DNA from: an uncultured Bacteroidales bacterium | Lineage (GTDB): Bacteria > Bacteroidota > Bacteroidia > Bacteroidales > P3 | Direction of reading: 5' to 3' | Length of the DNA stretch: 64,000 nucleotides | NCBI GenBank assembly: GCA_900318175.1 | Contig: ONJQ01000002.1 | Coordinates: 62,001-126,000 of the forward strand | Shown: positions 44,498-64,000 of the stretch, one piece after another | Layout of the letters: each line of letters opens with the position of its first letter | Numbering within the stretch: the stretch's first letter is position 1 | Position numbers and translations under genes: made by a program | The notes under the pieces: generated by a model | Seen by the model: only the letters and a program-made list of their open reading frames with translations | Told to the model about the DNA's origin: nothing | The model's database searches: none

Positions 44498-44843
44498 TTT
44501 GAAATACGTCTTTGCAAGTATTATTGGAGCGTTAGATGGTTAGCACGCAGGTGCAAGACAAGTTTTCAGGACGAGATGGACTGTGCCGAGGACTGTTTTT
44601 CCAATGTCACGCTTTTGTTAGGAAAGTAATACTCCCCCAAATAGAAACTTCCGATATACCGGGGAAAATCTTAATTTGGTTCATTACACCGCTATTGGGA
44701 TATAGTTACGCAATGATGTTTGATACCAAACAGAAAATGTCCCGAAAAGTCAGCACTTTCTGAAGAGAAAGACTATTGGCTTTTCGGGACATCATGCAGA
44801 TGTAACGTCAACTTATAGATCGCGTTCCATTAATTATCACGGT
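44498..44843. other. Intergenic region between convergent genes
   Basis: About 350 nt. It contains a strong inverted repeat/terminator at 44737-44792. A 75-codon frame at 44536-44763 runs into the terminator and has no recognisable family; I do not call it a gene. Confidence 0.5.
44737..44792. terminator. Bidirectional terminator
   Basis: ATGTCCCGAAAAG (44737-44749) pairs perfectly over 13 bp with CTTTTCGGGACAT (44780-44792). Inside the loop CTTTC and GAAAG can extend a second small stem. It separates the hydrolase gene from the oppositely directed surface-protein operon. Confidence 0.75.
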
Positions 44844-47800
44844 TTATTGTTTAAGAACACGTTTGATAGCAGTGCCGTTGTGTAGCGTGATGCGAAGGGT
44901 GTATGCCCCTGTAGGTAGGTTGCGGATGTCGATTACGTTGCTATCATAGAAGGTGTTGACAACACGTCCGTTCTGGTCAAATACCTCTACTTTTGTCACA
45001 CCGCTTGCTATTATGGTGACTTTGCCTGTTGTGGGGTTGGGATATAGGCTAATGTTGCCAAGGTCGTCGACGGTGCTGATGCCGATGTCGGTAATGGTCA
45101 GTTGGAGCACTATGATGCTGTCGCATCCGGCTTCAGTTCGTGACTCGTAGACGTATTCGCCACTTTCAGTGTAGGTGTTTCCTTGCCAATTGTAGCTACC
45201 GGCAGAGGTGTCGACAATGGTGTCGTAGCTGCTATAGTTAATGGTGAGGTTCAGGGTGATGGTGCTATCGCAGTCAAAGTGGTTGGGAATAGTCACGGTC
45301 GGCTCATTGGTGGAGGCAGTGTAGGTGTTGCCGTCAATCCAGGTGTAGCTGTCGCAAGCGGTGACGCTCTCGGTGGCGGAGGTGCTGTAGTTGATAGTGA
45401 GATACAGTGTCGTCACGCTGTCGCATCCAACGGAGTTGGTGGTAGTGACTGTATCGATAGTGGAGGTTGCATGGGTTGTGCCGTTCCAAGTGTAGCTATC
45501 GCAAGCGGTGACGCTCTCGGTGGCGGAGGTGCTGTAGTTGATGGTGAGATGCAGTGTCGTCACGCTGTCGCATCCAACGGAGTTAGTAGTAGTGACAGAA
45601 TCGATAGCGGAGGCAGTGTAGGTGGTGCCGTTCCAAGTGTAGATGTCGCAAGCGGTGATGTTCTCGGTGCTGGCGGTGCTGTAGTTGATGGTGAGATGCA
45701 GTGTCGTCACGCTGTCGCATCCAACGGAGTTGAAGGTGGTGACAGAATCGGTAGTGGAGGTAGCGTAGGCTGTACCGTTCCAAGTGTAGCTGTCGCAAGC
45801 GGTGATGTTCTCGGTGCTGGCGGTGCTGTAGTTGATGGTGAGGTGGAGGGTGATGGTGCTGTCGCAGCCCACATGGTTGGTAGTGGTGTATGTCGGGGTA
45901 GAGGTTGAGGCAGTGTAGGCAGTTCCATGCCAAGTGTAGCTGTCGCAGGCCGTGGCGGTCTCTATGGCGGTAGTGCTATTATTGATAGTAAGATGCAAGG
46001 TTACCGTGCTGTCGCAACCAGCGGCATTGGTGGTCTGATATGTCGGGGTGATGGTAGAGGCCGTATAGGCGGTACCGTGCCAAGTATAAGTGTCGCAAGC
46101 AGCAATGGTTTCGATGCCTGTAGTGCTGCTATTGATGGTCAGATGCAGGGTGACAGTGCTGTCGCAGCCTAAAGCGTTGGTGGTCATGTAGGTCGGTGTG
46201 TTGGTAGAGGCGGTGTAGGCGGTGCCGTGCCAAGTGTAAGTGTCGCAAGCCGAGATATTTTCAATACCAGATGTGCTGTTGTTGATGGTCAGGTGCAGTG
46301 TGACGGTGCTGTCGCAACCCACAGAATTGAGCGTTAAGAATTGAGCGTTGAGAGTTGAACTGGTATAGGTGCTGTCATGCCACGTGTAAGTGTCGCAAGC
46401 AATAACGGTCTCCGTGGCGGTGCTGCTATTGTTGATCGTGAGGTGCAGCGTGACGGTGCTGTCGCAGCCTCCCATGGCTGTGGTGGTGTAGGTCGGCGTG
46501 TTGGTAGAGGCAGTGTAATTGGTGCCGTGCCAGACGTAATGGTCACAGGCGGTAACCGATTCCACCGTAAAGAGGCTTTCGCCAATGGTGAGGTTGAGCG
46601 TTGTAACGCTGTCGCATCCTGAAGCATTCAGTGATGTGTATGTGGGAGTGTTGGTTGAAGAGGTGTAGGTGGTGCCGTGCCAGGTGAAACTGTTGCAAGC
46701 ATTCACAACCTCGACACCCGTGTTGCTGTAGTTGATGGTGAGATTCAATCTGGCGATACTGTCGCAGCCGGCAGCGTTGGTTGAGGTGACGGAGTCGGTA
46801 GTGGAGGCCGTGTAGGTGGTGCCGTTCCAAGTGTAGCTGTCGCAGACGGTAGCCGTCTCGGTGCTGACGGTGCTGTAGTTGATGGTCAGGTGCAGTGTGA
46901 CGGTGCTGTCGCAGCCCACGGCATTGGTCGTTGAGTAGGTAGGCGTACTGGTGGAGGCCGTGTAGGCAGTGCCGTGCCACGTGTAGGTATCGCAAGCGGC
47001 AGCCGTCACGGTGCTGGCGGTGCTGTTGTTGATGGTCAGGTGCAGTGTGACGGTGCTGTCGCAGCCCACGGCGTTAGTGGTAGCAAATGTGGGTGTGTTA
47101 GTTGAAGTAGTGTAGGTGTTGCCATGCCAAGTGTAGCTGTCACAGGCGGTGACGCTCTCGGTGCCCGTGGTGCTGCTGTTGATGGTCAGATGCAAGGTCA
47201 CCGTGCTGTCGCAGCCCACGGCATTGGTTGTCTGGTAAGTGGGTGTATTGGTCGAAGCGGTGTAGGTGGTGCCGTGCCAGGTGTAGCTGTCGCAAGCAGT
47301 CATTGCCTCAGTCGAGGTGGAACTGTTGTTAATGGTTAAGTGTAAGGATACCGTGCTGTCGCATCCCAGGGCATTGGTGGTTTGGAATGTGGGCGAGTCC
47401 GTTGAGGCGGTGTAAGTGGTTCCATGCCAGGTGTAGCTGTCGCATGCCGTGGCCGCCCGCACAGCCGTGGTGCTGTGGTTTATGGTCAGGTGCAGCGTGA
47501 CGGTGCTGTCGCAGCCCGACGTGTTGGTGGTAGAGTATGTGGGAGTGTTGGTGGAAGCGGTGTAGGCGGCACCGTGCCAGGTGTAGCTGTCGCAGGCGGC
47601 AATGGTCTCAGTGGTGGTGTCGCTATGGTTTATCGTGAGGTTCAGTGTGATGGTGCTGTCGCAACCAGCTTGTGTGGTCAGCGGCAAGATGGGAGTGTTG
47701 GTCGAAGCGGTGTATGTGTTGCCATGCCATGTCAAACTGTCGCAAGCCACTATCACGTCGGCAAAGTGATAGGTGGGGAGGATGTTGAGTTGCAGGGTAA

Positions 47801-49682
47801 CAACCGAGTCGCACCCCTTAGAGGTGTGGAGCGAGTCGATATAGGTGCCCGTGGCGACCAACGGCTGTGAACCGAAGAGGAGCGTGTCGCCGTTGCAAAG
47901 CTGACGGCGGGTGGTGTCGTGTTTGTGGTAGTTTTGTTGGAGCGAGAAGAGGGTGTATGAGTCTTCGAAACTGAGGCCGGTGATGTCAGTGGTGCGCAGA
48001 CGCACGGAGAACTCGTAACGGTCGATACAGGCCACAGAACCGTTCAGCCGCAGTTGGTTGTCAACAATGGTGAACAGGTTGTTGTCAGACGCCCCTTCGC
48101 CACTCACCAGTTCGTACACGAAAGGCAGATCGGCGTCGTCGTCCACGGTGGAGAGCTGAGCGACGACAGTGCCCACGGTGTCGTTCTCATAGAAATATTC
48201 GCTTGAGAGGAGAATTTCGATGGGGGCGGTGTTGAAGTTGATGGTGGTATCGGGCACGGCTTTGAAGGCCTCGTTATTGCCCACATTGTCCACCGCGACG
48301 GAGACGAATTTGTAATATTTGCCATATTCAAGGGTGACGGTGGCCGTGCTGTCCGGGTGGTAGTAGCCTTGCAGCGTGTAGGTACCTTCATTCTCGGAGA
48401 CGTACAGTTGCACCATGCTGACACCCGAACCTCCTTCATCATCGTTGGCTGTGAAAGTGAAGGAGCTGTAGAGCGAATCGGCAGGATCGAGCGTGCAGTG
48501 GAGCGTGGAAGTGGGAGCTACGGCATCGAAAGTGTTCCCCCATACGTTGGTCTCGATGGGGGCGTTGTCGTCGAAAACGATGGTGGCCATGGCCCGGACG
48601 GTGTCGCCAGTGTGGACAGCGGGATTAGGTGCTATGAAAAAGCTGACGTAACCCTCACCCCTTTCGAGAGAGTCGTTGATGGGCAAGAAACCCATCTGCG
48701 CATTGGCGGGTTCGAATCCCGTTGCAGGGTCGATACTCTGGAAAATCCAGAAAAGCCGATGGCCCACGATGTCGATACCCGCAGTCACATCAACCATCAC
48801 ACCCAACGAGTCGGTGACATCCAGCCGCTGAGAGTACGAAGAAACATTGGACGGCACCGTGAAGATATAGTTCCCAAAGCCAAAATCAGACAGCCGGAAC
48901 GATGAAATGTTCTGCTCCGGAGGTACTTGGTAAGTGATGGACACCCTTGAGGCAGGAGCAGTGGCAAAGTCAGGGTCATTTTCGAAGCCGATGGTGTAGT
49001 TCATCTTATCGGCAGCTGCCACATAGCGGAGGCTGTCGTCATAGCCTTCGGGTCCTTTGATTTCGTTGGGGTCTTGCGAACATTCAAGTTTCTTGATGTA
49101 GACAAATTTAAAAGCCGTTCCTTTGCGGCCGTCAGTGTCGGTGACGGTGACAGTGTAAATACCAGTAGAGGACACTGTCTTGGTCTGTGAGCCCCAGGAG
49201 TAGGTGTAGTTTCCGTTGCCACCCGACACATTGGCGGTGAGCATCACCGAGGGAGTTTCGCAGTTGGAGTTGGTGGGCATAGGATTTGAACTGATGCTGA
49301 CATTCAGTTTACATTCTTCTTTGCCAATGGAGAAATGCAGGTCGGGGCAAGCCTTTACGTTACAACCATTGATGGTGATGGTAATCTTGCCTTTGGTGCC
49401 GCCGGTGAGGCCTGTGAGTTCTGTGCCGCCAGTGCGGCTGTTGGAGTACCAGCCTATGCCCGACAATAAATTGTCGCCCCATTCCCATCTAATGGTACAC
49501 TCTGCTTCCAGATCGGGCGAGATGTACAAGGTGGCCTTTCCACGACCTTGATCGCAAAGGTCGGGTTCGGTACTCACCGAAGGTCTGCTGTACATATATG
49601 TCTGTCCTAAACATTGTCCAATGCTTAGAAAGAGAAAAAAGGCCAGAACCAAGAGTCTGTGAATATTAAAATCTTTCTTCAT
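44844..49682 (-). CDS. Large repetitive surface protein with T9SS type A sorting domain
   Basis: This 1612-residue exported protein has a signal peptide (LLVLAFFLFLSIGQCLGQ). A PKD/SprB-like region follows (SGGNGNYTYSWGSQTKTV). Next is a DPNEIKGPEGYDD segment typical of large Bacteroidetes adhesins, then a cadherin-like domain (VAQLSTVDDDADLPFVYEL). Seventeen near-identical 49-50-residue repeats come next (ACDSYTWHGTTYTAS...GCDSTVTLHLTIN), each with two cysteines, flanked by degenerate copies. The C-terminal domain (ISLYPNPTTGKVTI...YTLRITLHNG) is a T9SS type A sorting signal, so the protein should be exported and surface-anchored. Starts at 49682 or 49700 are possible. It is the last gene of the four-gene operon. 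Confidence 0.9.
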   Translation of the reverse strand: MKKDFNIHRLLVLAFFLFLSIGQCLGQTYMYSRPSVSTEPDLCDQGRGKATLYISPDLEAECTIRWEWGDNLLSGIGWYSNSRTGGTELTGLTGGTKGKITITINGCNVKACPDLHFSIGKEECKLNVSISSNPMPTNSNCETPSVMLTANVSGGNGNYTYSWGSQTKTVSSTGIYTVTVTDTDGRKGTAFKFVYIKKLECSQDPNEIKGPEGYDDSLRYVAAADKMNYTIGFENDPDFATAPASRVSITYQVPPEQNISSFRLSDFGFGNYIFTVPSNVSSYSQRLDVTDSLGVMVDVTAGIDIVGHRLFWIFQSIDPATGFEPANAQMGFLPINDSLERGEGYVSFFIAPNPAVHTGDTVRAMATIVFDDNAPIETNVWGNTFDAVAPTSTLHCTLDPADSLYSSFTFTANDDEGGSGVSMVQLYVSENEGTYTLQGYYHPDSTATVTLEYGKYYKFVSVAVDNVGNNEAFKAVPDTTINFNTAPIEILLSSEYFYENDTVGTVVAQLSTVDDDADLPFVYELVSGEGASDNNLFTIVDNQLRLNGSVACIDRYEFSVRLRTTDITGLSFEDSYTLFSLQQNYHKHDTTRRQLCNGDTLLFGSQPLVATGTYIDSLHTSKGCDSVVTLQLNILPTYHFADVIVACDSLTWHGNTYTASTNTPILPLTTQAGCDSTITLNLTINHSDTTTETIAACDSYTWHGAAYTASTNTPTYSTTNTSGCDSTVTLHLTINHSTTAVRAATACDSYTWHGTTYTASTDSPTFQTTNALGCDSTVSLHLTINNSSTSTEAMTACDSYTWHGTTYTASTNTPTYQTTNAVGCDSTVTLHLTINSSTTGTESVTACDSYTWHGNTYTTSTNTPTFATTNAVGCDSTVTLHLTINNSTASTVTAAACDTYTWHGTAYTASTSTPTYSTTNAVGCDSTVTLHLTINYSTVSTETATVCDSYTWNGTTYTASTTDSVTSTNAAGCDSIARLNLTINYSNTGVEVVNACNSFTWHGTTYTSSTNTPTYTSLNASGCDSVTTLNLTIGESLFTVESVTACDHYVWHGTNYTASTNTPTYTTTAMGGCDSTVTLHLTINNSSTATETVIACDTYTWHDSTYTSSTLNAQFLTLNSVGCDSTVTLHLTINNSTSGIENISACDTYTWHGTAYTASTNTPTYMTTNALGCDSTVTLHLTINSSTTGIETIAACDTYTWHGTAYTASTITPTYQTTNAAGCDSTVTLHLTINNSTTAIETATACDSYTWHGTAYTASTSTPTYTTTNHVGCDSTITLHLTINYSTASTENITACDSYTWNGTAYATSTTDSVTTFNSVGCDSVTTLHLTINYSTASTENITACDIYTWNGTTYTASAIDSVTTTNSVGCDSVTTLHLTINYSTSATESVTACDSYTWNGTTHATSTIDTVTTTNSVGCDSVTTLYLTINYSTSATESVTACDSYTWIDGNTYTASTNEPTVTIPNHFDCDSTITLNLTINYSSYDTIVDTSAGSYNWQGNTYTESGEYVYESRTEAGCDSIIVLQLTITDIGISTVDDLGNISLYPNPTTGKVTIIASGVTKVEVFDQNGRVVNTFYDSNVIDIRNLPTGAYTLRITLHNGTAIKRVLKQ
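45230..47770 (-). repeat. Tandem array of about seventeen 150-bp coding repeats
   Basis: The repeats correspond to 49- or 50-residue units. WHG-type units (50 residues) and WNG-type units (49 residues) alternate in blocks: unit 7 of the array and units 14-16 are WNG-type. Neighbouring units share long identical DNA stretches, so copy number is likely to vary by recombination. Confidence 0.85.
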
Positions 49683-49710
49683 GGTATGTTCATTTTTCAT
49701 TTTCAAACAA

Positions 49711-51135
49711 TCATTCGCATACGTCGCCCACACCGTTGCCATTCACATCGGTTTGGTCGGGGTTGAAAATCAGGGGGCAGTTGTCGTCGTTGTTGGGGAT
49801 GCCGTCGCCGTCAATGTCATCGTCGCAGGCATCGCCAATGCCGTCGCAGTCGAGATCCTCCTGGTTGGGGTTGTAGGAGTAGGGGCAGTTGTCTTCAACG
49901 TTAGGGATGCTGTCACCGTCAATGTCAGAATCGCAGACATCGCCTTCACCGTCACCGTCGGTGTCGGTTTGGTTAGCGTTGGCATCTTCAGGGCAGTTGT
50001 CACAGATGTCGCCAATTCCATCCTCATCAGTATCATATTGTCCCGGATTAAAGGTCATGGGGCAATTGTCGACATCATTATCGACACCATCGCCGTCCAT
50101 GTCTGTATCCAATTGGTTCGGGATGCTATCGTTGTCGATGTCGGGGTCACATTCATTCCCTATGCTGTCAAGGTCATAGTCCAGTTGGTAGGGATTATAC
50201 ACGGTCTGACAGTTGTCACAGGAGTCTCCTATGCCGTCCCGATCAACATCGGTCTGCTGAGCATTAGATGCATAAGGACAATTGTCGCATCTGTCACCTA
50301 TGCCGTCTTCATCATAGTCTTCCTGAATGGGGTTGTAGTGCTTAGGACAATTGTCGCATGCATCGCCTATGCCGTCATTGTCGACATCTATCTGGTCGGG
50401 ATTGGAGGTACACGGGCAGTTGTCCTGCAAGTCCTCCACGTTGTCGCCATCCAAATCTCCATCCGAAAGCATGTCAATTGGGGCATGACGGTAGAGATAG
50501 TTTGTCAAGTTGGCTATCATTCCTGAAGAATCCACTTCGCTGGTGAGATACCAGTTGCTCCCCACCTGCTGACACAGATGGGTGGACACATTCACCGACC
50601 CACCACTCATATGAAATTTTGTAACCAGAACATGGTAGGCACCCCTTGTGTAACTGCAAACAAGGGTTATACTGTCTATAGTGGACAACTTGCTCTTCAA
50701 AGTATCAAGATACGTTCCGTAGGAAAGCATCTTCGATGTAACACTGTCCACCGGACGAAAAAGAGCTCCCATATTCGTCCAGTCCTGTGTCTGATACATG
50801 CTTAGCAGCCTGCACAGTAACAAAGTAGGCGAACCGTTGCCTGTTAGCGATTGGCTTCCGCCCGTGGTTTTAATAGTGCGGTTGGTTGCTGCTGGAGGTA
50901 GTCCGTTGAGAGAGTATGAGAATAGCGAATCACAAATATGATGATCTTCATCGGGTGAAAACACCAAAATCGAGTCGTTCCTCATATTCAACAGAATATG
51001 ATAGTCCGTACATGTATATTGTGGATATACAGCATTTTGAGCCATTGCTTTATTTGAGGCTGCAATGGGGATAATTAAGATTATGCTTAATACAATAGCA
51101 TAGACCTTGTTTATGGTATGATTTATAGTTCTCAT
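49711..51135 (-). CDS. Exported thrombospondin type 3 repeat protein
   Basis: This 474-residue protein has a signal peptide (VYAIVLSIILIIPIAASNKAMAQ). An N-terminal domain of unknown type (residues 33-225) is followed by eight thrombospondin type 3 calcium-binding repeats of the form DNCPxxxNxxQxDxDxDGIGDxCD. The protein ends abruptly at GVGDVCE, directly after the eighth repeat, with no sorting domain. TSP3 repeats wrap calcium and form stiff linkers. It is 3 nt after the 51139 gene and 28 nt before the T9SS-sorted protein, so co-expression is near certain. Its cell-surface attachment is unexplained. Confidence 0.86.
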   Translation of the reverse strand: MRTINHTINKVYAIVLSIILIIPIAASNKAMAQNAVYPQYTCTDYHILLNMRNDSILVFSPDEDHHICDSLFSYSLNGLPPAATNRTIKTTGGSQSLTGNGSPTLLLCRLLSMYQTQDWTNMGALFRPVDSVTSKMLSYGTYLDTLKSKLSTIDSITLVCSYTRGAYHVLVTKFHMSGGSVNVSTHLCQQVGSNWYLTSEVDSSGMIANLTNYLYRHAPIDMLSDGDLDGDNVEDLQDNCPCTSNPDQIDVDNDGIGDACDNCPKHYNPIQEDYDEDGIGDRCDNCPYASNAQQTDVDRDGIGDSCDNCQTVYNPYQLDYDLDSIGNECDPDIDNDSIPNQLDTDMDGDGVDNDVDNCPMTFNPGQYDTDEDGIGDICDNCPEDANANQTDTDGDGEGDVCDSDIDGDSIPNVEDNCPYSYNPNQEDLDCDGIGDACDDDIDGDGIPNNDDNCPLIFNPDQTDVNGNGVGDVCE

Positions 51136-51138
51136 GGC

Positions 51139-52407: not shown

Positions 52408-52434
52408 AGAACTATATATTTTATCAGTTAATTA

Positions 52435-55400
52435 TCATTGATGTCTTTCCACTGTCATTATAAGTGTGCCTCCAGTATACCCGTATATGGGTATGGTACT
52501 CTGTGCACCGGGGCGGAGCAGGCCGTCGGGCTCACCCTCTATTGTCAGCGGCACCAGAATTGAAGTCTGATGGTCGTTCAGTCCTTCGGGAGTTAGGGAC
52601 ATCCATGCCCCACCAAGGCTGGTCACACGTAGCACCGCACCAGTGATGTCTACATTGCCGACATTGCCGAATTCGAGTGTCATCACAATATTGCGGTTAG
52701 GACGCGGCGATGCCGGGAATATGAGGTTATAACCCAAGTTGTCGGGTACTCCAGGCACTATTTGGAAGGCATTTGCTAAAATCGCCTCACCTTCACAGTG
52801 GTTCAGTACCGCTACATCATACAGACCAGTATCTTTGCCTGAAAGGTTGAAGGTGGCGAATGACTTATAGTAGTTCACATAGATCACTGTATCTGGGTAC
52901 AACGTATCGGAAACTCCTGCCATCCACACCTGCATATCGGGACGGAAACGTGAGCCGGTCAGTTCCAATGTCACGGGTCCAGTGTTACCACCCATCGAGG
53001 GCGACACACTGCGCAACTCGAAAGGTATGATGTCTGCGGAGACTACAACGGCCTGCGTCGTGCCGGTAGGTGTGGAACCATAGAGATTGATGCCATAGTA
53101 CTGAGGCAGGGTGGCGGGAATATACAATTCAGGATTGCCGGTATATTGCCCGATGGTCGAGTAGTCGTAGTGGAGATTGTCTCCCACCGTGTTGTGTGAC
53201 ACGTAAATCATGTTCACTGCTCCGTTGAGAGAGTCAGCGGACGAAATGTGTATCCGCACAGTTTCATTGCGGTGGGTGCCCACGTTGAGCCTGAAGTCGC
53301 TCACTTGGTCATTAATCAATGTGTCAGCTGTCGGAGTGTTGAATTCGAGGATACGGATTACCAACCTCACGGCAAAGGCAGAGTGAGCGGTGTTGTTGTC
53401 GTGATTGAGTTCATTGAATGCGTTGCGCACATTCGTTTTTACAATTAAATGGTAGTCGCCCTCTGGCAGACCGGCCACGCGTGCCGACAACGACTGTTGC
53501 AGGGCTCCGCTCTGCGATAGTGTGATGTTGTTGCTCTCCGTCATGCCCAGTAATTTGTCAGTGGCATCGAAAAGCGTGTCGGACGACAGGTATACCAAGC
53601 TGCGAAGGCCGTTGCCGGTGAGTGTGTTTTCACCAATGTTGCGCACATTCCATGTCACATGCAGTCGGCTGCCTGACACTACCGAGTCGGCAGCATCAAT
53701 ATCCGCCACTACCAAGTCGCCAGGCAATGGCAACGCCACAGTGGCAGCAGCGACGGCAACATTGTTGTCCGTGACCGACTCGAAGACGGTATTACTGGCA
53801 TTGGCCTTTATGATCAGATTAACATTGCCTTCCACAGGAAGAGGTACCGTAAAGTCTATTGTATCATAGTAGTATTGGTAAGGTGCGATGGTGTCTCGAT
53901 TCTGCAGTAGGCTTCCGATTTCAACATCGGAGCTTTCCAGCGTGCTGTTGTACGACAGGAACACCTTGTCGGTCCATGTCGAAGGAACAAGCGGCACGGT
54001 TCCCACGTTGGAGACCTTATATGATGCCTTTGTTGTCTGACCAGATATCACAGTGTCTGAAAGGATAACGAAATCTGAGACAACCAAATCGGCGGTAGGA
54101 ACACTGCTTACTGTAATCTGTTTGGTGAAAACATTATTGGCCATGTTTATGTCGGGGTTGTTAGCATTCTCGTCGGTCACAGCAATCAGATAGGCAGATG
54201 CGGGTGTTCCCATCGGAACGGTGAAGGTGAAATCTATTTGATAGGTGCTGTCGGGCAGCAACTGAGTGCGGTGCTCAGTAGTGTGCAGTTGGATGTCCGA
54301 GTTGTGCAGGATGGGGTCAGACGAGAGGTATACAGCATCTTTCCATACCGCCGACAATGTGGGAACCGTGGAATTGTTTTTCACCACGAGACGCTGATGA
54401 ACCTGTTCACCCCATCGGACAGTTCTGTTGCCCTGTAGGTCGTAGGCTGCAAGGTCTAAGGGATATACCTTCACGCGCATGGGGGCGGAGTGGGCTGTGT
54501 TGTTATTCTCGCCGGTATGCTCGTAGATGTCGTTATTGGCATCGGCGACAACAAGGATGTAGTAGTTGCCCGCAGTGACGGTGGAGGGCACTGCAAATGT
54601 TGCCGAAAGCTGAACGGTGTCGGCCACGGGCAGGCTGACCTGGGTGGTATGGGTGTAGAGCAGACGGGTGGTGTTGTAGGTAGTGGACGAGGTGGAATAG
54701 TATATCTTGCTGCTGACGGACTGGCCGGCAAGTGTGGCGGTTCCGATATTGGACAGTTTATACTGAATTGTTATTACTTCACCGATATTTACTTCGTCAG
54801 GGGCAATAACGTTCGACACCGTCAGGTCGGGCCATGGCGACAGGTAAACGGGTAGTACTGTGGTGTGCGTCACATTGTTGGCGCTCTCACTCTCACAGAC
54901 AGTGCCGGTGGCATTGGTGACAAGGTGCAGGTAGTAGTTGCCTGACAGGCCGTTGGGCACTGTGAAATGCCCGTCGATGGTATCGGTTTCGCCCATAGCG
55001 AGGTTTCGCTGGGTAGAATAGCGTCCCACGCTGTCAGACAGGTTGTACGATACGGCACTTTGGCTTAGGTATATCCTGTCTGTCACTGTTTGGTTTGTCA
55101 CATCTGCATTGCCTTGGTTGGTCACCATCCAACGTAATGGCATGGTGGTGCCGGACCAGAGTGAATCGGTCGGGGATACAACGGACACTACAAGGTCGGC
55201 AGCTGTCACTATGCCAAGGTATGCCGCCTTGGTGTTGTTGGTTGTTGCACCGGCTTCGGTTATCTGGTTGGTCACATCGGTGGTGACACTCACGGCCCCG
55301 GGTGTGGTGGCGTTGCAGGGGACGGAGACGACGGCATTGCGCACGATGCTGTCGCCCGCGTTGAGGGTGATGTTGGAGAGGGAGGCATTGTAGAGTGTCT

Positions 55401-58400
55401 CAGTGCCCCAATTCACCCTGTCCTGGAATGAGCGGCCTATCACATCGCCAGGGCCGATGTTCTTTACCGTCCACCATACTCGCATGGTGCTGCCCAGTGT
55501 CACGGTGTCGGGCAGTATTACCGAGGTGACAGCCAAATCGGGCAGGATGGTGTGCAGGGTGTCGGCACAGCGGAGGATGTTGTTCTCCTCCGATCCGTTT
55601 TCAAACACGTTGCTCTGATAGTCTGTCACAACCCACAGATATCTGTTGCCGGAGATGGTTGTGGGCAGGGTGATATGATAGGTATTGGAGTAGGTTGAGT
55701 CGGGGGGTAGGGTGAGCGTGCAGCGGGATGATGTCAAAAGTGTGGCGTTATTGCTGTGGAACTGGGGGGTGGCGGTCATGTATACCGCGTCGCGCCATGT
55801 GGTGCCCCCGAGTGTACCGCTGCCCACATTTGCCACTTGGTAGGTGAGTGTGAATGTCTGTCCCGGCGACACCTGGTTGGACGACAATGTGACTGTCTGC
55901 ACTGCCAGGTCGGGCACGAGTATGGTCACCGTGGTGTCGGAACGATAAGTGTTGTTGTCCTCGTAAGTATATTCGAACACTTGATTGTCCACATCGGTCA
56001 CAACAAACAGGTACCACCCCCCGGCGATATTGCCGGGTATGGTTACGGTGGCGGCCGTTGTATAGGACGAGTCGGCATCCAGCACTGCATTGTGCTGCAG
56101 CAGGGCAAGACGCGTGGCGGTGGACGTCAGTTGCGGCAATTGCGAGATATATATGGCATCTTTCCAGCTGGGGGTGTAGGTTGCGGAACTGCCGCTGTTG
56201 CTGACAGTGTAGGTGATGGTGTAGCTGCCGTTGGCATCCATTTCTTGAGGATAGGATACCGACGAAACGACCAGGTCGGAAGGGGGAGTGAGGGTTACAT
56301 TCAGCGTCTGGGCCGAAGCGGTTACGTTGTTTTGCTCATAGATGCTCTCATACAGGCTATTGTCCACATCGGTAGCAACGAAGATGGTGTAGTCACCCAT
56401 ATAGCTGATGGGTATGGTGATGGAGGCTGATTGGATGTAAGTGGCGGAGGGGGCAAGTGTGTCGAGCCCATGAGCGAATGTGCCGAGCGTCACAGCCTCG
56501 GACAGGTCGAGTTCGACAGCACGGCCGGGTTGGATATACACCCTGTCGCTCCAATTGCCGATGGCCGCGGCATCGCCTTGGTTGGTGACGGTCCATTGTA
56601 TGGTCATCCCGCTGCCCGAGAAGGTATTGGTAGGGTGCGAGATGTGCGACACGACCAAGTCGGGTGTTGGAGGAGGCAGGATGTTGATGACCTTGTAGAA
56701 AAAGTTGTCACTCTCATTAGACTCTACTATTCGGCTATGGATAAAGTTGCCAGGATAGCTTGAAGTTTGGGAGGAGAGATAAGGATAGGGGCTGCCTGAG
56801 CTGCTGGGTTGGTAGGGGATGGGAGCCATGTTGGAGCCCGTGGGTGAGAAGTCGATATTGTTGGCAGAATATTGGTCGGAAAGCACGAAGAGGAAGAAGT
56901 TGCCGATGTAGTCCTGCGGCAGGCTGACCTGAACGCTGTTGGTGTAGCTGTCCCCGCTATTGAGCGACTGCAGGTTGGGCACCGTGGCAAGCAGCACTTC
57001 GTCCACGTTGTACAAGAAACCGCCTCCCACACCGGAATGGCCGGTCACCCAGATGTAGTCGTTCCAGGTTGCATTGGGAGGAGTGTTTCCGTTGCCATCA
57101 TTCACCACGGTCCACTGCACAGTCATTGTCTGGTTTGCAATGGGTGAGGAATTGGTGATTTGAGACACATGGAGGTTTGGCCGGTCGTTGGCCATGAGGG
57201 TCATCACGGGGCTGACCTTGTTGATGCACTCATTCCATGCAACCACCTTCCAATTGTACACTTCACCATAGTTGTATCCAGGTAGTGTATAGTTGTCCAG
57301 TACAGGGTTGGGAAGGCCCGAAGCGGTGGGCGTGGCAGGTTCGGCAGTTCCCGACTTCCAGATATAGACATCGTATGAAGTGGCATTGGACAAAGCGGAC
57401 CATACGAATGAGACTGTTGAGTTGTAAACGATCGTACTGTCGGCAGGGCTGAGTGAGGTAAAGTCGGACAGGGGCAGGAGTTGTGAGGTGTCGCACAGGG
57501 TGGTGAAATTGACAGGGATGGAGAATAGACTCATTGCACCGCTGTCGCATATTGTGCGCACTTTGGCTGTGTATGTGCGGTTGAGAACAAGGTTGTTGAG
57601 AGCGATGGTGGTATCGGTAGTAGAGATGGAGTCTGTAGCAATGCTGCCACGCGTGCCATAGAGCACCAAATAGCGCACGCCTGTCGAGGGACTCCACGCT
57701 AGCCGTGCAGAGCTGCTTGTGACATTGACGGCCTGTAAACCTATCACCGAAGGACAGGAACTTTCTTCGGACGACTCATAGGCGCCAAAGTCTACCGAAC
57801 CACCGAAGATACGACTGTTTCCTTCAAGGTCGGTGCTCTGTGTGACAAGTGAGCTGTTGCCTGCATCGATGAGCGGAGAGGAATTATGGAGGTGGTAGTC
57901 TCCATTTTCAGGGTCAATGAAACGAACGTAGAATGCGGTCGGGTCGGTTCCATCGTTTGAGGCGGCAAGGTCTATGATGTCTGTACCACCAGAATAGCCT
58001 CCTTCTATTGCCGAGGAGTGCAGGGTAGGTGTCCCCACCAGGTTGTTCACATAGTATCCCCGCTTGTTCCCCCAAATGATGCAGTTGTTGAACGTACCAT
58101 TGTTATAAGAGGAATAGATGCCACCTGTCCCGCTGGTGGTATTGTAAGTGCAGGTGTTGTTCACAATGTCGCAGTTCTCAAAAACAGCATTGTCATTAAT
58201 ATATACCGCTCCGTAGCCTGGATATACTGTAACGGTGTTATGGTCGATGATGCTGTTATAGAAATAGCATTGAGTTGAAGAGTGAACACCTGCACCATAG
58301 CCTGCACTATTACCGCTGATGCGGCAGTTGGTGACGGTGGTGTAGTAGGCATATAATCCTCCTCCATAAGAGTATGTGTTTGTTGCAGTGTTGTCCAGAA

Positions 58401-61400
58401 TCAGCGTATTAGTGATATAAAGAGGATTGGAATGATTGGAAGTCTTGAATATACCAGCTCCGTTGCCGTTGAGCGTGGTGTTGTATTGGACAATACAGTT
58501 GACTATCTGGAAGTTGCCATTAATGTATGCCCCGGCGCCATCACCACTATTGAGACGGCCGTTCTGCAAGGTGAGTCCATCCCATACTGTCAGAGTATTG
58601 AAACTGAAGGGTTGGTATAGCACGCGCTGAAGGTTCTGTCCGTCGAGGATAGTGGCATGGGCTGCCATGTCGCGCTGCGACAGGTCATAGTTGGCTGGCT
58701 CGTTGCCAGCAAAGCCTCCGTAGACATTCACACCCTCAACTGCCATAAAGGCGTTCGGGCGATCGGGGTCGCCATAGTATGTGCCTTCGGCCACCCAGAC
58801 GGGATAATGATACATGGAAGCCACACTCATGGCATCTTGCAGGTCGGGCATGGCATTCTGCCATGAGGTGCCGTCCATCGTCCCAGCACCGCCTTCGGTT
58901 ACGTAGACGATATTGTCAGGGTATACAGGCATGGACACTGGATTGTATGGGGTTTCATAGCAGCCCATATCTACCGTTCCCTGCTGTATTCGATTGTTTC
59001 CGGCAAGGTCGGTCGAGGTGGAAACAAAGTCGTTCGAGCCACGTCCGATACAGATGGAGCCATCTGTCAATTGCCAACTGTTACCAACATATTGGTATCC
59101 CGCACCCTCTGCCGGTGCTTCAAACCGAGGGCTGTTGAACGAACCCGTGTTCGAAGAGGACAGCATGACACACGTGGTATCAGTTACAGCATCTTGCACA
59201 GCAGAATACTGTATCGAAGAATTGTTTGCCTGTAAAACCGTAGCGGCGGTATTATTGCCCCACAATATGCAGTTGCTCAGATGGCAACCGGAGTAAGATG
59301 TATATACGCCACCATTTTGATAAGCTTCATTGGCTACGATAGTTGAATTGTTGACAACAGAATAATAGTAAGGATATAGGCCTCCGCCATAGTTTGTCGC
59401 AGTATTATTGGCGACAAGGCAGTTGTCCATAGTCGCGTAATACAAGTAGGCACCACCGCCCGATGAGGCCCTGTTGTTTGTGATTTGGCATTTCTCAATC
59501 AATGGGGTATAGATGGTATGGTACTGGCTAAGACTGTCGTAATAGCTGTATGAAGTGCCCGAGGCATAGACTCCGCCACCATTGCCAGACGTTGAATAGT
59601 TGTCTTTTATCTGACAGTTGCGGAGCGTAGAATAGGCTCGTATATACGCACCAGAGCCATTTCCGTTAATTTGTCCACGCTGTATGGTGAAACCGTCCCA
59701 AGCGGCAGATATTGTGGTGTCAAAGTCCGAAGATTGGTAAAGTACACGGCGTTGGTTGCGTCCGTCCAAGATAGAGGCGTTGGCGTCGAAGTCACGCAAA
59801 GCGAGGTCGTAGCCTTCGGGCTCGTCCCCAGCGAAACCGCCATAGACGTTGATGCCTGCCCGTAAGGTGAACGCGTTGCTGCTTGACGATGAGGTGTCGC
59901 CATAGTAGGTGCCGGAAGCCACCCACACTTGTGCAGGACTTCCAAAGACCGAACTTCGGGCAGCGGCATAGTTCACCGCACGGTTGATGTCGCTCATGGC
60001 ATTGTCCCACGACGAGCCGTCGGCCAGACCTGAGGGTTGGGATGCCACATATACTATGGGCGAGGCATCGGGCAATGTGGTGAACGAGATGGTGCGCCAT
60101 CCGCTTGTGTCGCCGACGGCACAGATGTTGCGCACCCGCAGATAATAGGTTGTTGACTGGGAAAGTCCTTCAAGTGTGGAGTCCGCACCCAACAGCACCA
60201 TACCGTATACCTCACCAGCAGCATCCTTTCGCAATTGAAGTTCATAGTTGCTACCTACAAGCATGTGTACTTTAGCACTATGTGCGGCAACATCGTACAC
60301 ACCCACGTTGGCACGGTCGCAATCGGACGACCCGCCCGAGCAAGTGCCCGTGAGCCGAATATTGTTCCGGTACGAGCTGGAGTTGTGCGAAGGTGGATTG
60401 TTGATGTCGTATGGGCTGCCATCACGATAGGAGTATACCGCCATTGTGTTGGGCGTGGCGTGGGTGTAGAACTTGGCACTGCTGCTCTGGTACCAACCCG
60501 AATTGTCCACCATGACCACAAGCAGATTGTCTGTGCCATTGTATGTGAACGGAGTCTGCAGCACGATGGGACACCAATAGTTGTCACCAGTGTTGTTGAA
60601 ATTGACGGTGCCGCTGTAGACCAATTGGAAACCGCTTGACGGGATATAGCCGGACAAGGAGCTGGCGTCGGTGTGTGCCAGATAAAGGTTAATGGTTCGG
60701 TTGTAGGGGGTTGAGTAGAAATATTGGAAACTGACGGTGTCTATATCGTGTGCCATGTTGCCTAATTCCTGGGCAGTGTAGAGCTGCTGAGTGTAGGAAT
60801 AGTTGTAATATGTATATGTGGGCAATACGCCTCCGCTGGTGGTAGAGGTGCCGACACCAACTATCACCGGTTCGCACTCCATAAGGCTGGCAAGGGTGTT
60901 GAAGGTGCAGGTCTCGTAGTCGCTGGAGCCACCCGAGGTGTCGCACAGCTGCCGCACTCTCACCCTGTAGCTTGTGCTGGGGTTGAGCCCCGCGAGGAAA
61001 AGCGAGGTCTGGGCTGTGGTGGTGTAGTGTGTCCACTCTGCCCCGTTGATGGACAGGTCAATCTCGTAGGCGTATGGAGCATTTCCATCCCTCGATGCAT
61101 ACGATAGAAAGGCGGAGTTCTCAGTGATGTTGGTAATAGTAACATCCTGTGGGTTCAGGCAGTACGTCTCATTGTGGAATTCGTAGCAGCCGATGTCAAC
61201 AGTGTCGTCGCTGACGCGGTCCTGTCCGCTCAAGTCATACTGGGTTACCGATGCCGGGGCATATGGGGCGGTGGTATAGCCCTGCATGGTGCCTCGGTTA
61301 ATCAGGGCCGACGAGCCGTGCAGCCGGTAGTCGCCCCTTTCGATATTGACAAAGGCGGGGGCCGACGCCCAGCCGGGGCCAGCAAAGTTGTCCGACGCGA

Positions 61401-64000
61401 GCGTGATGATGCTGTCCGCCGTGAGACCCTCCACGGCACTGTGGCTGAAAAGGGTTGTGTTGTAGCTGCCGCCGATGTTGTCGACGCCAGCAGTAGAGGT
61501 GCCCCGGTTGCCCCACACCGCCGTGTTGAGGAGGTGCAGGTAGCCGGTGGTGTAGATTCCGCCGCCCGCATAGGCACTGGTGTTGACCACACGGTTGTTT
61601 GCAACGGTGGTGTTTTCAAGATAGGTGGTGCCGTTTGCATACACGCCCGCGCCGCTGTAGAGGGACCGGTTGTGGTCGATAAGCGTGTTGTGGACATAGG
61701 TGGCGGAGGCGACATACAGCGCCCCCTGGCGCGAAAGGTTGTGGTGCAGCCGGCTGTTTGCAATGGTAGTGTGCGTACCGGCGTAGAGGGCGGAGCCGTA
61801 CGCGAGGTTGGTGCCGCCTGTCAGGGAGTCGCCGTTGCCCGCAATGTCGCAGCGGTCTATCACTATGCCGCTCGTGCTGCCCGCGTTGGCGGTGTATATG
61901 CCGCCACCATAGTGGTAGGCACCATCATAGACGGTGGCATTATCCCTCACCGTGCAGTTGCTGAGGGTGAACCCCCCGCACAGATAGGCGCCGTGACCAT
62001 ATGTCGAGTTGCCCGTGCTGGGCAGGTAGCCGTGCTGGATGACGAAGCCGTCCCACGTGGTGCGGATGTTGAAAGCTGACGGCTGGAACAGCACCCGCCT
62101 TGCGCCCGCACCGTCAAGGATGGTGGGGTTGGCGGCAAAGTCGCGCTGGGCGATGTCGTAGTCCTCCGGCTCCACCCCGGCAAAACCACCATAAACGTTC
62201 ACTCCCTCCAGTGCGACGAAGGCGTTGTTGGACGTCGTATCACCATAGTAGGTGCCCGCAGCCACCCACACCTCTGCGGCCGTGCCGTGCGTCACGGCGC
62301 GTACGGCGGCAACGGTCTGGGCATAATTGATGTTGTCGGTAGCGTTGATCCACGACGAGCCGTCGGCCGTGCCCGCAGCATGCTGCATCACATACACGAT
62401 GGGCGACCCCGACACTGTTGTTGTAAATTGAACTTGATACCAATCACCGGGAGTCCCGTTGCAGACGTTGCGGATGCGTATACTATAGTTGGTGCCCTGA
62501 GCCAACCCTGCCACCGTGCCTCCATTGGCAAGGGAGAGGGACTCATAAGCCCCGCCGGCTGTCACATTGCGCAGCTGCAGTTCGTAAGTGTTGTTGGCCA
62601 CCCATTCAACCTCGGCACTGTTGGCGGTCACGTTGCGGACCACCATATTAGGACGTGGGCAGTCGGGGTCCGTTGTCTGGCAAGCGCCCATAAAACGGAT
62701 GTTGGTGCGGTGGGAATTGAGTGAGGCGGCCGGTGGGTTGGCCGGATTGTAGGCAGTGCTCGTGTTGTTGAATGCGTAGGCTGCCCGCGTATCATCTGTT
62801 TGATGGGTTCTAAACAGGCCGTTGTCGCAATAAGTGTACGATCCCGTGTGGTCGACCATCGCCACCAGTAGGTTGCTCGTCCCGTTGTAATGGAAAGATG
62901 ACATCAAGGGGATGTTGACCCAATAATCCATGCCCGTGTTGGTGAAATTAACAGGGCCAGAATACACCAGCTCAAATCCTGTTGAGGGGAGGAATGCGGA
63001 CAGGTGTGACTGAGTGGTATGAGCCAAGTAGATGTCGATGTGCCGGGTGTCGTCGTAAGGGTATACATACTGGAATCCAATCGTGTCGATATTGTGCGCC
63101 TCAGAACCCATCTCCGTTGAGGTATAAATCTGCTGGGTGTAGGACTGGTAGTAGCAAGTGTTGGTAGGCAGGCACCATCCCCCATCCGTCGTTTCGGCGG
63201 TGCCGATAGTCAGCGGGTCGCAGTTGCCCAAGTTATGCGTGCGGAAACCGACCGTGCGGGAATAGCTGCCGAACGCCGTGTCGTCACACACTGCGCGCAC
63301 CCGCACATAATACTGCTGGTTGGTGTCGAGACCAGTCAAAAACAGATGCTCCTGAGCGGTTGTTCCGTAGAGAGTCCACTCCGTACTCGGGGTGCTGAGC
63401 TCAATTTGACAGGCTGAAGGGGATTCGGTGCCGCTGTGACGGAAGGTGATATAGGCTGAGTTGAAACCCACAGGTCCCACTGTGAGGTGGGTGACCCTTG
63501 GGCAATTCTCTATTACGCCGTTCTCGTAGCATCCGATATCCACCTGCTCGAACTGGACTCGTGGGTTGCCATCCAAGTCGGTTGTCGCAGTGACATAGTT
63601 GCTGTCGCCCGCGTCAATCAGGGCCGAACCGGTCATCAAAGTGTAATCGCCATCAGTGGGGTCGGTAAAGCGGGGATAGTTTATGCCCTCGGAAGTTCCG
63701 TCGTTGCTGTCTGAAAGCGTTATGACCGAGGCATAGCTCTCCGTTATGCCGTCGAATGCACAGTTGTGTATGATATAATTGTAATAACTATCAATAGACG
63801 AACGATTTCCATTAACCCTATTGCCCCACACCACAGAGTTGTTGAGAGTGACCTGATTGCCATAGTAAGTGTATATAGGGCTATAGCTCTCGGATTGGTT
63901 GGACACAATATCGCTATTGTTTATGGTGAGTGATGCGTAATAGTTGTAGACTCCACCACAATAATGGGCAGTGTTATTGTTAATAATACAGTTATTTATC
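52435..64000 (-). CDS. Giant surface protein: beta-helix, Fn3, CARDB and TIG domains (5' end outside window)
   Basis: At least 3854 residues are encoded; the frame is open through the right edge. The layout from the N-terminal side (approximate positions) is: the end of a parallel beta-helix (64000-63500); Fn3, a sheath-like domain with SYTQQIYT, and Fn3 (63500-62410); beta-helix (62400-61180); the same Fn3/YTQQ/Fn3 unit (61165-60070); two further beta-helix modules (60060-57770), all with GVNVYGGFAG; two Fn3-like domains (57760-57190); ten CARDB domains of the DLVVSxVxxP type (57185-53350); a beta-sandwich; and a TIG domain (53040-52770). It ends in MTVERHQ without a T9SS sorting domain. It is probably a cell-surface adhesin or matrix protein and the first visible gene of the operon. 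Confidence 0.88.
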   Translation of the reverse strand, partial: INNCIINNNTAHYCGGVYNYYASLTINNSDIVSNQSESYSPIYTYYGNQVTLNNSVVWGNRVNGNRSSIDSYYNYIIHNCAFDGITESYASVITLSDSNDGTSEGINYPRFTDPTDGDYTLMTGSALIDAGDSNYVTATTDLDGNPRVQFEQVDIGCYENGVIENCPRVTHLTVGPVGFNSAYITFRHSGTESPSACQIELSTPSTEWTLYGTTAQEHLFLTGLDTNQQYYVRVRAVCDDTAFGSYSRTVGFRTHNLGNCDPLTIGTAETTDGGWCLPTNTCYYQSYTQQIYTSTEMGSEAHNIDTIGFQYVYPYDDTRHIDIYLAHTTQSHLSAFLPSTGFELVYSGPVNFTNTGMDYWVNIPLMSSFHYNGTSNLLVAMVDHTGSYTYCDNGLFRTHQTDDTRAAYAFNNTSTAYNPANPPAASLNSHRTNIRFMGACQTTDPDCPRPNMVVRNVTANSAEVEWVANNTYELQLRNVTAGGAYESLSLANGGTVAGLAQGTNYSIRIRNVCNGTPGDWYQVQFTTTVSGSPIVYVMQHAAGTADGSSWINATDNINYAQTVAAVRAVTHGTAAEVWVAAGTYYGDTTSNNAFVALEGVNVYGGFAGVEPEDYDIAQRDFAANPTILDGAGARRVLFQPSAFNIRTTWDGFVIQHGYLPSTGNSTYGHGAYLCGGFTLSNCTVRDNATVYDGAYHYGGGIYTANAGSTSGIVIDRCDIAGNGDSLTGGTNLAYGSALYAGTHTTIANSRLHHNLSRQGALYVASATYVHNTLIDHNRSLYSGAGVYANGTTYLENTTVANNRVVNTSAYAGGGIYTTGYLHLLNTAVWGNRGTSTAGVDNIGGSYNTTLFSHSAVEGLTADSIITLASDNFAGPGWASAPAFVNIERGDYRLHGSSALINRGTMQGYTTAPYAPASVTQYDLSGQDRVSDDTVDIGCYEFHNETYCLNPQDVTITNITENSAFLSYASRDGNAPYAYEIDLSINGAEWTHYTTTAQTSLFLAGLNPSTSYRVRVRQLCDTSGGSSDYETCTFNTLASLMECEPVIVGVGTSTTSGGVLPTYTYYNYSYTQQLYTAQELGNMAHDIDTVSFQYFYSTPYNRTINLYLAHTDASSLSGYIPSSGFQLVYSGTVNFNNTGDNYWCPIVLQTPFTYNGTDNLLVVMVDNSGWYQSSSAKFYTHATPNTMAVYSYRDGSPYDINNPPSHNSSSYRNNIRLTGTCSGGSSDCDRANVGVYDVAAHSAKVHMLVGSNYELQLRKDAAGEVYGMVLLGADSTLEGLSQSTTYYLRVRNICAVGDTSGWRTISFTTLPDASPIVYVASQPSGLADGSSWDNAMSDINRAVNYAAARSSVFGSPAQVWVASGTYYGDTSSSSSNAFTLRAGINVYGGFAGDEPEGYDLALRDFDANASILDGRNQRRVLYQSSDFDTTISAAWDGFTIQRGQINGNGSGAYIRAYSTLRNCQIKDNYSTSGNGGGVYASGTSYSYYDSLSQYHTIYTPLIEKCQITNNRASSGGGAYLYYATMDNCLVANNTATNYGGGLYPYYYSVVNNSTIVANEAYQNGGVYTSYSGCHLSNCILWGNNTAATVLQANNSSIQYSAVQDAVTDTTCVMLSSSNTGSFNSPRFEAPAEGAGYQYVGNSWQLTDGSICIGRGSNDFVSTSTDLAGNNRIQQGTVDMGCYETPYNPVSMPVYPDNIVYVTEGGAGTMDGTSWQNAMPDLQDAMSVASMYHYPVWVAEGTYYGDPDRPNAFMAVEGVNVYGGFAGNEPANYDLSQRDMAAHATILDGQNLQRVLYQPFSFNTLTVWDGLTLQNGRLNSGDGAGAYINGNFQIVNCIVQYNTTLNGNGAGIFKTSNHSNPLYITNTLILDNTATNTYSYGGGLYAYYTTVTNCRISGNSAGYGAGVHSSTQCYFYNSIIDHNTVTVYPGYGAVYINDNAVFENCDIVNNTCTYNTTSGTGGIYSSYNNGTFNNCIIWGNKRGYYVNNLVGTPTLHSSAIEGGYSGGTDIIDLAASNDGTDPTAFYVRFIDPENGDYHLHNSSPLIDAGNSSLVTQSTDLEGNSRIFGGSVDFGAYESSEESSCPSVIGLQAVNVTSSSARLAWSPSTGVRYLVLYGTRGSIATDSISTTDTTIALNNLVLNRTYTAKVRTICDSGAMSLFSIPVNFTTLCDTSQLLPLSDFTSLSPADSTIVYNSTVSFVWSALSNATSYDVYIWKSGTAEPATPTASGLPNPVLDNYTLPGYNYGEVYNWKVVAWNECINKVSPVMTLMANDRPNLHVSQITNSSPIANQTMTVQWTVVNDGNGNTPPNATWNDYIWVTGHSGVGGGFLYNVDEVLLATVPNLQSLNSGDSYTNSVQVSLPQDYIGNFFLFVLSDQYSANNIDFSPTGSNMAPIPYQPSSSGSPYPYLSSQTSSYPGNFIHSRIVESNESDNFFYKVINILPPPTPDLVVSHISHPTNTFSGSGMTIQWTVTNQGDAAAIGNWSDRVYIQPGRAVELDLSEAVTLGTFAHGLDTLAPSATYIQSASITIPISYMGDYTIFVATDVDNSLYESIYEQNNVTASAQTLNVTLTPPSDLVVSSVSYPQEMDANGSYTITYTVSNSGSSATYTPSWKDAIYISQLPQLTSTATRLALLQHNAVLDADSSYTTAATVTIPGNIAGGWYLFVVTDVDNQVFEYTYEDNNTYRSDTTVTILVPDLAVQTVTLSSNQVSPGQTFTLTYQVANVGSGTLGGTTWRDAVYMTATPQFHSNNATLLTSSRCTLTLPPDSTYSNTYHITLPTTISGNRYLWVVTDYQSNVFENGSEENNILRCADTLHTILPDLAVTSVILPDTVTLGSTMRVWWTVKNIGPGDVIGRSFQDRVNWGTETLYNASLSNITLNAGDSIVRNAVVSVPCNATTPGAVSVTTDVTNQITEAGATTNNTKAAYLGIVTAADLVVSVVSPTDSLWSGTTMPLRWMVTNQGNADVTNQTVTDRIYLSQSAVSYNLSDSVGRYSTQRNLAMGETDTIDGHFTVPNGLSGNYYLHLVTNATGTVCESESANNVTHTTVLPVYLSPWPDLTVSNVIAPDEVNIGEVITIQYKLSNIGTATLAGQSVSSKIYYSTSSTTYNTTRLLYTHTTQVSLPVADTVQLSATFAVPSTVTAGNYYILVVADANNDIYEHTGENNNTAHSAPMRVKVYPLDLAAYDLQGNRTVRWGEQVHQRLVVKNNSTVPTLSAVWKDAVYLSSDPILHNSDIQLHTTEHRTQLLPDSTYQIDFTFTVPMGTPASAYLIAVTDENANNPDINMANNVFTKQITVSSVPTADLVVSDFVILSDTVISGQTTKASYKVSNVGTVPLVPSTWTDKVFLSYNSTLESSDVEIGSLLQNRDTIAPYQYYYDTIDFTVPLPVEGNVNLIIKANASNTVFESVTDNNVAVAAATVALPLPGDLVVADIDAADSVVSGSRLHVTWNVRNIGENTLTGNGLRSLVYLSSDTLFDATDKLLGMTESNNITLSQSGALQQSLSARVAGLPEGDYHLIVKTNVRNAFNELNHDNNTAHSAFAVRLVIRILEFNTPTADTLINDQVSDFRLNVGTHRNETVRIHISSADSLNGAVNMIYVSHNTVGDNLHYDYSTIGQYTGNPELYIPATLPQYYGINLYGSTPTGTTQAVVVSADIIPFELRSVSPSMGGNTGPVTLELTGSRFRPDMQVWMAGVSDTLYPDTVIYVNYYKSFATFNLSGKDTGLYDVAVLNHCEGEAILANAFQIVPGVPDNLGYNLIFPASPRPNRNIVMTLEFGNVGNVDITGAVLRVTSLGGAWMSLTPEGLNDHQTSILVPLTIEGEPDGLLRPGAQSTIPIYGYTGGTLIMTVERHQ

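Follow-up and report, generated by a model that had tools for sequence, protein, structure and literature searches.

Here, we describe four adjacent genes, P1 to P4, which probably constitute a single transcription unit for one T9SS-dependent structure of the cell surface. Composed of several subunits that are exported separately, it would be a giant adhesin or scaffold. We give this reading, which is drawn from sequence comparison, a probability of roughly 0.6. The genes lie in the window, i.e. the whole stretch of 64,000 nucleotides that was analysed (G000:C21:62001-126000, where G000 is the genome of the window's organism), and all of their features given below are on its minus strand. Beyond what the initial annotation had noted, the system appears to exist as a single giant protein in some relatives, and its middle genes appear to have been exchanged.

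Layout and transcription signals of the gene run

Open reading frames were called at 52435-63999, where the frame runs off the window edge, and at 51139-52407, 49711-51135 and 44844-49742, giving the order P1-P2-P3-P4. P1 (52435..64000 in the window) runs on to window-equivalent position 67569, P2 (51139..52407) encodes 422 aa, P3 (49711..51135) 474 aa and P4 (44844..49682), read from its likely start codon, 1612 aa. The earliest ATG of the P4 frame would make it overlap P3 by 32 nt; a start at base 49682 yields the 1612-aa protein and a 28-nt gap, and in G062, whose locus is near-identical to that of the window, the P4 ORF is also 1612 aa long and starts at the corresponding site. With this start, the ORF coordinates reproduce the four same-strand genes and the gaps of 27, 3 and 28 nt first reported for them. 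The initial annotation had also suggested extending the contig to find the operon start. The complete P1, taken from the neighbouring stretch, is G000:C21:114435-129569; its product of 5044 aa looks exported, beginning with a signal-peptide-like segment, and the next ORF upstream, which by eye resembles a dCMP deaminase, lies 966 nt away. Therefore, the run begins at P1 and comprises four genes. Downstream of P4 lies a gene on the opposite strand.

No minus-strand terminator-like site was found in the gene junctions of the run. The pattern TTTG-N17-23-TAnnTTTG, which we take to be that of Bacteroidota promoters, has its sole exact match within the 19.5 kb stretch L004 at 142 nt upstream of the P1 start (0.22 matches expected; at least one match in 41 of 200 shuffles), and no exact match in the operon's window part. 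A scan of 44400-64000 for sigma-70-type sites returned 30 versus 19.5 (SD 5.0) expected. Three of these overlap the P1/P2 junction on the operon strand (52458-52411), so that a second transcription start is possible there. These three sites speak for separate promoters within the operon, a candidate that we regard as less likely given the lack of an exact match to the Bacteroidota-type pattern. P1 to P4 are thus likely to be read as one transcript. Over the window as a whole, the Bacteroidota-type pattern was matched at 1255, 1504, 2849 and 43602, four matches against 0.69 expected and a number that none of 100 shuffles reached.

We also considered, and rejected, the possibility that the break between P1 and P2 is an artefact of a premature stop or frameshift: an ATG with a signal-peptide-like start is present 27 nt past the P1 stop, and in the other four-gene loci described below P2-type genes begin 16-93 nt past it. 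All four window proteins have signal-peptide-like starts with no lipobox, as judged by eye and with a simple pattern. The G+C content is 53.7% in P1, 42.6% in P2, 47.9% in P3 and 54.3% in P4, the window having 54.6%; the low values of P2 and P3 are as compatible with an insert acquired later as with a long-standing pair.

Domain composition of the four proteins

P1 had been labelled a beta-helix/CARDB/TIG protein. Pfam and NCBIfam together place 8 CARDB, 3 fn3 and 3 choice-of-anchor-Q stretches in its window part, and the complete protein contains five copies of a beta-helix start motif; neither library calls a TIG domain in the window part. The CARDB array covers about 53350..57177 and contains 10-11 units if judged by the spacing of a D-L-V-V-type start motif, Pfam calling 8. 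It is followed by a tail of 304 aa (52438..53349), which is conserved across families and also in the RHS variant described below, and which forms the C-terminus in split versions of the system and is internal in fused ones. The tail has no PDB match at E<=0.1. No sorting domain was called by Pfam or NCBIfam in the window part of P1, its C-terminus included.

P2 has a signal-peptide-like start, an Ig-like N-terminal part and a C-terminal half that by eye is beta-like and contains Cys. Its earlier description as PKD-like was not confirmed by the models: the window's P2 has no Pfam or NCBIfam family, and a PKD model matched only one of 11 aligned P2 sequences, at E=0.028, this being the best of four Pfam families that each matched a single sequence. 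Matches to NCBIfam were equally scattered (P13_porin in 1 of 11, E=0.023; DsbA in 1 of 11, E=0.094), and the only PDB match of the P2 profile was an antibody light chain at E=0.41. A sorting domain was called in none of the 11. P2 drifts fast, relatives sharing 18-25% identity with the window's P2.

In P3, which looks exported, the TSP3 label was confirmed: Pfam finds 8 TSP_3 stretches within the calcium-type repeats at 49714..50466. TSP3 repeats are shared with the MtsC-type cohesion protein of myxobacteria (NF047638), against which P3 scores 238 bits where the cut-off is 350, the best stretch (residues 344-467) falling within the repeats. The N-terminal domain (50470..51054) has no family match (among 11 aligned sequences, two Pfam families matched one each, the best at 0.066) and no PDB match at E<=1; strong matches to it occur only where P2 is present. 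Pfam and NCBIfam call no sorting domain in P3. With no convincing known family for either, P2 and the N-terminal domain of P3 look, from these searches, like new families marking the system. PADLOC returned no match for P2, P3, P4 or one RHS protein.

P4 combines DUF7619 with Por_Secre_tail. Its N-terminal part (48441..49679) contains a signal-peptide-like start, Ig/PKD-like domains and DUF7619; in fused giants, its homologue comes directly behind the tail, after a short linker. Sixteen regular repeats of 49-50 aa, of the CDSYTWHG..GCDSTVTLHLTIN type, occupy 45207..47594, and a T9SS type A sorting domain lies at 44847..45047. The latter scores 45.2 bits with TIGR04183 (cut-off 23) and 41.4 with PF18962 (cut-off 27); since the window part of P1, P2 and P3 have none, the claim that only the last protein bears a sorting domain stands. 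The window's genome contains SprA, the T9SS component searched for (TIGR04189, 2355 bits). In relatives, the last protein of the locus likewise has a sorting domain in 15 of 15 scanned cases in which the C-terminus is in hand (window, G100, G125, G213a, G213b, G472, G171, G205, G307, G334, G235, G264, G213:C28, G006 and G061). This count leaves out G062:C94, G028, G010 and G204, whose C-termini are available; contig ends truncate the last proteins of G016, G032, G068, G115 and G062:C114 as well as the fused frames of G138 and G140, and the G067 end is not in the sample. The domain was not called in P1 of the window, G213b, G472, G171 and G205, in four RHS proteins or in the two middle proteins of G205.

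The DUF7619 match of P4 (PF24595) covers mainly the C-terminal half of that domain. The isopeptide bond of DUF7619 is formed by a Lys-Asp-Asn triad, whose Lys is presumably the second residue after DPN; by eye, this residue is Ile or Leu in all 27 aligned sequences (in G061, the preceding residue is Lys), so that an isopeptide bond is doubtful in P4. P4 matches the family of the DUF7619 isopeptide domains (PMC12617251) but seems to lack the bond-forming Lys. The DUF7619 domains of these loci (window 48441-49679 plus the 27 sequences) form a distinct subfamily of the FENDP.FATAPA type.

Gene order, fusion and exchange in relatives

The initial annotation had proposed a search for the same gene order in other Bacteroidales, and had named separate occurrence of the four genes in relatives as the outcome that would count against it. 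We found the order P1-P2-P3-P4 in 11 distinct loci, seven in the genus and four in other Bacteroidales families, and the four genes were not seen apart in relatives among the genomes searched. Within the genus, the P1 tail matches 16 of 120 genomes, 12 of them strongly, while the N-terminal part of P4 finds 20 of the 120, its strong matches falling in these very 12 genomes. The profiles of P2 and of the P3 N-terminal domain each match 8 of the 120, and these are the identical 8; all have the order P1-P2-P3-P4, and they count as 7 distinct loci owing to the near-identity of G062 to the window. The window's P2 used alone as query matched 4 of 61 genomes, its own included. Among 393 order-level genomes, the P1-tail profile matches 17 (G000 included), the P2 profile 6 and the profile of the P3 N-terminal domain 5. 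The P2 matches extend over most or half of the profile in G000, G171, G213 and G472 and are short pieces in G145 and G471; the P3 matches are strong in G000, G171, G213 (two loci) and G472 and weak in G190. Complete P1-P2-P3-P4 loci outside the genus are those of G171, G472 and, twice, G213; these four belong to three families. In the searched genomes, no full-length or strong match to P2 or P3 was found without the other, the exceptions in G145, G471 and G190 being short or weak pieces. One of the G213 loci has its P1 in two ORFs of 766 and 855 aa (L108:8545-13476), which points to gene damage or an assembly error.

In 27 loci, picked by their tail and P4 matches, the P1 tail is succeeded by a P4-type domain, which shares its ORF in 5 loci and lies in the second-to-fourth ORF in 22. 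The loci read do not include the weak genus match G030, the P4-type matches G005, G079, G092, G011 and G138:C101, the G471 stretch L119, or 7 of the 17 order-level genomes with tail matches (G214, G233, G242, G271, G362, G390 and G482), in which the match is partial, covering at most 195 of 304 positions. G005, G079, G092 and G011 show low-scoring DUF7619-type matches with no P1-tail match, and DUF7619 alone is therefore no mark of the system.

Four genus genomes, G010, G067, G138 and G140, carry the P1 tail, a short linker and the N-terminal part of P4 in one frame, with no P2 or P3 at the junction. The frames are 6120-6124 aa long in G010, 6572 aa in G067 and at least 4861 and 5826 aa in G138 and G140, both of which are cut by contig ends. 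The fusion point is a domain boundary: the first domain of P4 past the signal peptide aligns with the domain following the tail. By eye, the C-terminus of the G010 fusion resembles the end of the sorted proteins. P2 and P3 may be present elsewhere in these genomes, whose assemblies are 72-82% complete. G204 contains a distant single ORF of 2722 aa with tail and P4-type domain.

Trees of the tail and of P4 were computed from 26 of the 27 loci, the near-identical G062:C94 being dropped, and are drawn with midpoint roots. In the tail tree, the four fused loci of the genus are sister to the seven split ones (supports 96/90 and 88/82), and this genus group adjoins the four-gene loci of G171, G472, G205 and G307. 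In the P4 tree, the fused four are united (100/99) and the split ones are not resolved; the three-gene RHS loci, not the four-gene loci, are closest to the genus group (95/94). Because the nearest neighbours are split in both trees, the split state is likelier to be ancestral and the fusion derived, although the trees disagree on the nearest outgroup and horizontal transfer is possible. The presence of P2 and P3 from the start is suggested by the tail tree and by their occurrence in other families.

What lies between P1 and the sorted protein differs among loci. G205 and G307 have four genes with different middle proteins. We asked whether these are distant versions of P2 and P3 and rejected the idea: their second gene shares only the first Ig-like domain of P2 (hhalign 98%), and P3 is not shared. 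G334, G235, G213:C28 and G264 are two-gene loci; in the first three, the last protein (L114:7581-12221, L115:7097-11677 and L117:6526-11082) has a thermolysin (M4) domain on the N-terminal side of its DUF7619 and sorting domains. Finally, the genus loci G006, G115, G061 and G062:C114 consist of P1, an RHS protein and a DUF7619 protein, the RHS proteins (L074:5455-9813, L075:9355-13572, L076:8365-12555 and L077:2391-6527) standing at the place of P2 and P3. All four have RHS repeats with a variable C-terminus; Pfam and NCBIfam call no such repeats in the window proteins. The RHS core is conserved and identity collapses past approximately alignment column 1300 (9 of 68 positions, for example), a pattern like that of polymorphic toxins. 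The RHS gene is only 43-78 nt from the sorted last gene, and there is therefore no immunity gene between them.

Proposed structure, known systems and alternatives

In the structure that we propose, P1 would form an extended rod built from beta-helix, Fn3 and CARDB units, with the conserved tail at its end. P4 would supply the matching next domain, DUF7619, the repeat array and the sorting domain for its own export and anchoring. P2 and P3 would form a pair; their genes lie between those of P1 and P4, and the proteins probably take up the corresponding place in the assembly, where P3 would be a calcium-stiffened stalk. The P1 tail would meet the first domain of P4, with P2 and P3 binding there; this contact is probable because relatives join exactly these two pieces. 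Assembly would take place in the periplasm, and P1 to P3 would cross the outer membrane with P4 through SprA, remain bound to one another and held by P4, and serve adhesion. It is most likely, we infer, that the tag-less subunits leave the cell with P4. The conserved order, the co-occurrence of P2 and P3 and the natural fusion of the P1 tail to the first part of P4 are all to be expected of one joint structure.

How the subunits might be held was addressed by comparison with cohesin-dockerin assemblies. Outside the genus, 10 loci were scanned for a cohesin at the start of P1: it scores above cut-off in 6, one of which is the fused ORF L118, and below it in 2, and is missing in 2; a dockerin is found in P4 above cut-off in 6 of 10 loci, below it in 1 and is not listed in 3, part of this search having been run at E<=0.001. 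Both are above cut-off in four loci, L108, L109, L112 and L114, and in L117 it is the last protein, not P1, that bears the cohesin. Dockerins are common in several of these genomes (82 matches in G213, 31 in G334, 24 in G235 and 21 in G171), so the pairing on P1 and P4 may be a coincidence there. In G205, both dockerin matches fall in the cluster, as do 3 of 7 cohesin matches, 4 being elsewhere. A large protein with a dockerin match lies directly upstream of P1 in G205 (L112:3-2354) and in G472 (L110:3-1901), and is a possible second partner for the P1 cohesin. Unlike these loci, the whole genomes G000, G016 and G028 have no cohesin or dockerin match at E<=0.01. Docking of this kind was therefore rejected for the window's organism, whose structure must be held otherwise. 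Of the earlier proposal of one surface structure held by the sorted protein, the joint structure is supported by order, co-occurrence and natural fusion, and P4 would be its putative holder.

T9SS substrates are recognised via their own C-terminal domain. With its sorting domain and signal-peptide-like start, in a genome that has SprA, P4 resembles a type A substrate. Its three operon partners, the largest protein among them, also look exported but bear no sorting domain. SprB is a giant, repeat-rich T9SS surface adhesin of Flavobacterium. The system shares with it size, repeats and T9SS, but the chain here is split over genes, and the sole calls of SprB repeats were in last proteins of certain relatives outside the genus. 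The TANFOR polymorphic toxins, as presented in PMC7073777, are large CTD-less proteins encoded beside CTD-protein genes and are hypothesised to use T9SS. They are toxins with variable C-termini, whereas no toxin family is called in P1 to P4; the RHS variant of the relatives is closer to them. No N-terminal TANFOR domain was called in the window proteins with Pfam and NCBIfam, libraries that may lack the model. In the literature searched, which took in passages of PMC7073777, PMC10994853, PMC12617251 and PMC10202324 and few subscription journals, we found no demonstration of T9SS passage by a CTD-less partner.

It is unlikely that, instead, the P1 tail or some other feature is an unrecognised T9SS export signal, the proteins meeting outside the cell or acting separately on the same task. 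Such a role would fit a tail that is the C-terminus of the aligned split P1 proteins and is retained across families and in the RHS variant, and CTD-less T9SS substrates beside CTD genes are proposed in PMC7073777. However, the tail is internal in the joined frames, in one of which (G010) a sorting-domain-like end follows by eye, and P2 and P3 have no tail. Less probable again, to our minds, is that P1 to P3 stay in the periplasm or travel in vesicles, the operon being a cluster of often-recombining, repeat-rich exported proteins co-located through co-transfer. The scanned P1 to P3 proteins do lack a sorting domain, the middle genes vary by locus and the G+C content of P2 and P3 is unlike that of their neighbours; this account sits poorly with the lack, in the genomes searched, of any full-length or strong P2 or P3 match without its partner, and with joined frames that place P1 and P4 domains in one chain. 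Accidental splitting, in which P2 and P3 were inserted into what had been one giant gene and the pieces are now decaying, would agree with the joined versions in the genus, the deviating G+C of P2 and P3 and the two-ORF P1 of L108. It is highly improbable, however: the gene order is kept in 11 distinct loci, all of which have intact P2 and P3 frames, and most of the proteins for which the start is available begin, by eye, like signal peptides; moreover, outgroup families share the split state and the fused four form one clade.

The reading of one joint, T9SS-dependent structure could tentatively be extended to a general hitchhiker architecture of Bacteroidales T9SS, which we regard as possible rather than probable. 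The CTD-less giant P1 and the DUF7619-CTD protein P4 would frame an exchangeable cargo slot; the complete set would come together in the periplasm and pass through SprA by means of one sorting signal, that of the last subunit. As part of the same speculative extension, the slot might hold P2 and P3, an RHS protein with a variable C-terminus, other repeat pairs or, within the last protein, a thermolysin domain. As the operon is conserved, has only one tagged subunit among its four and has relatives whose end pieces are one chain, it makes co-export by T9SS directly testable. If it is true, exported proteins that stand outside lists of T9SS substrates, some RHS proteins included, may be T9SS cargo.
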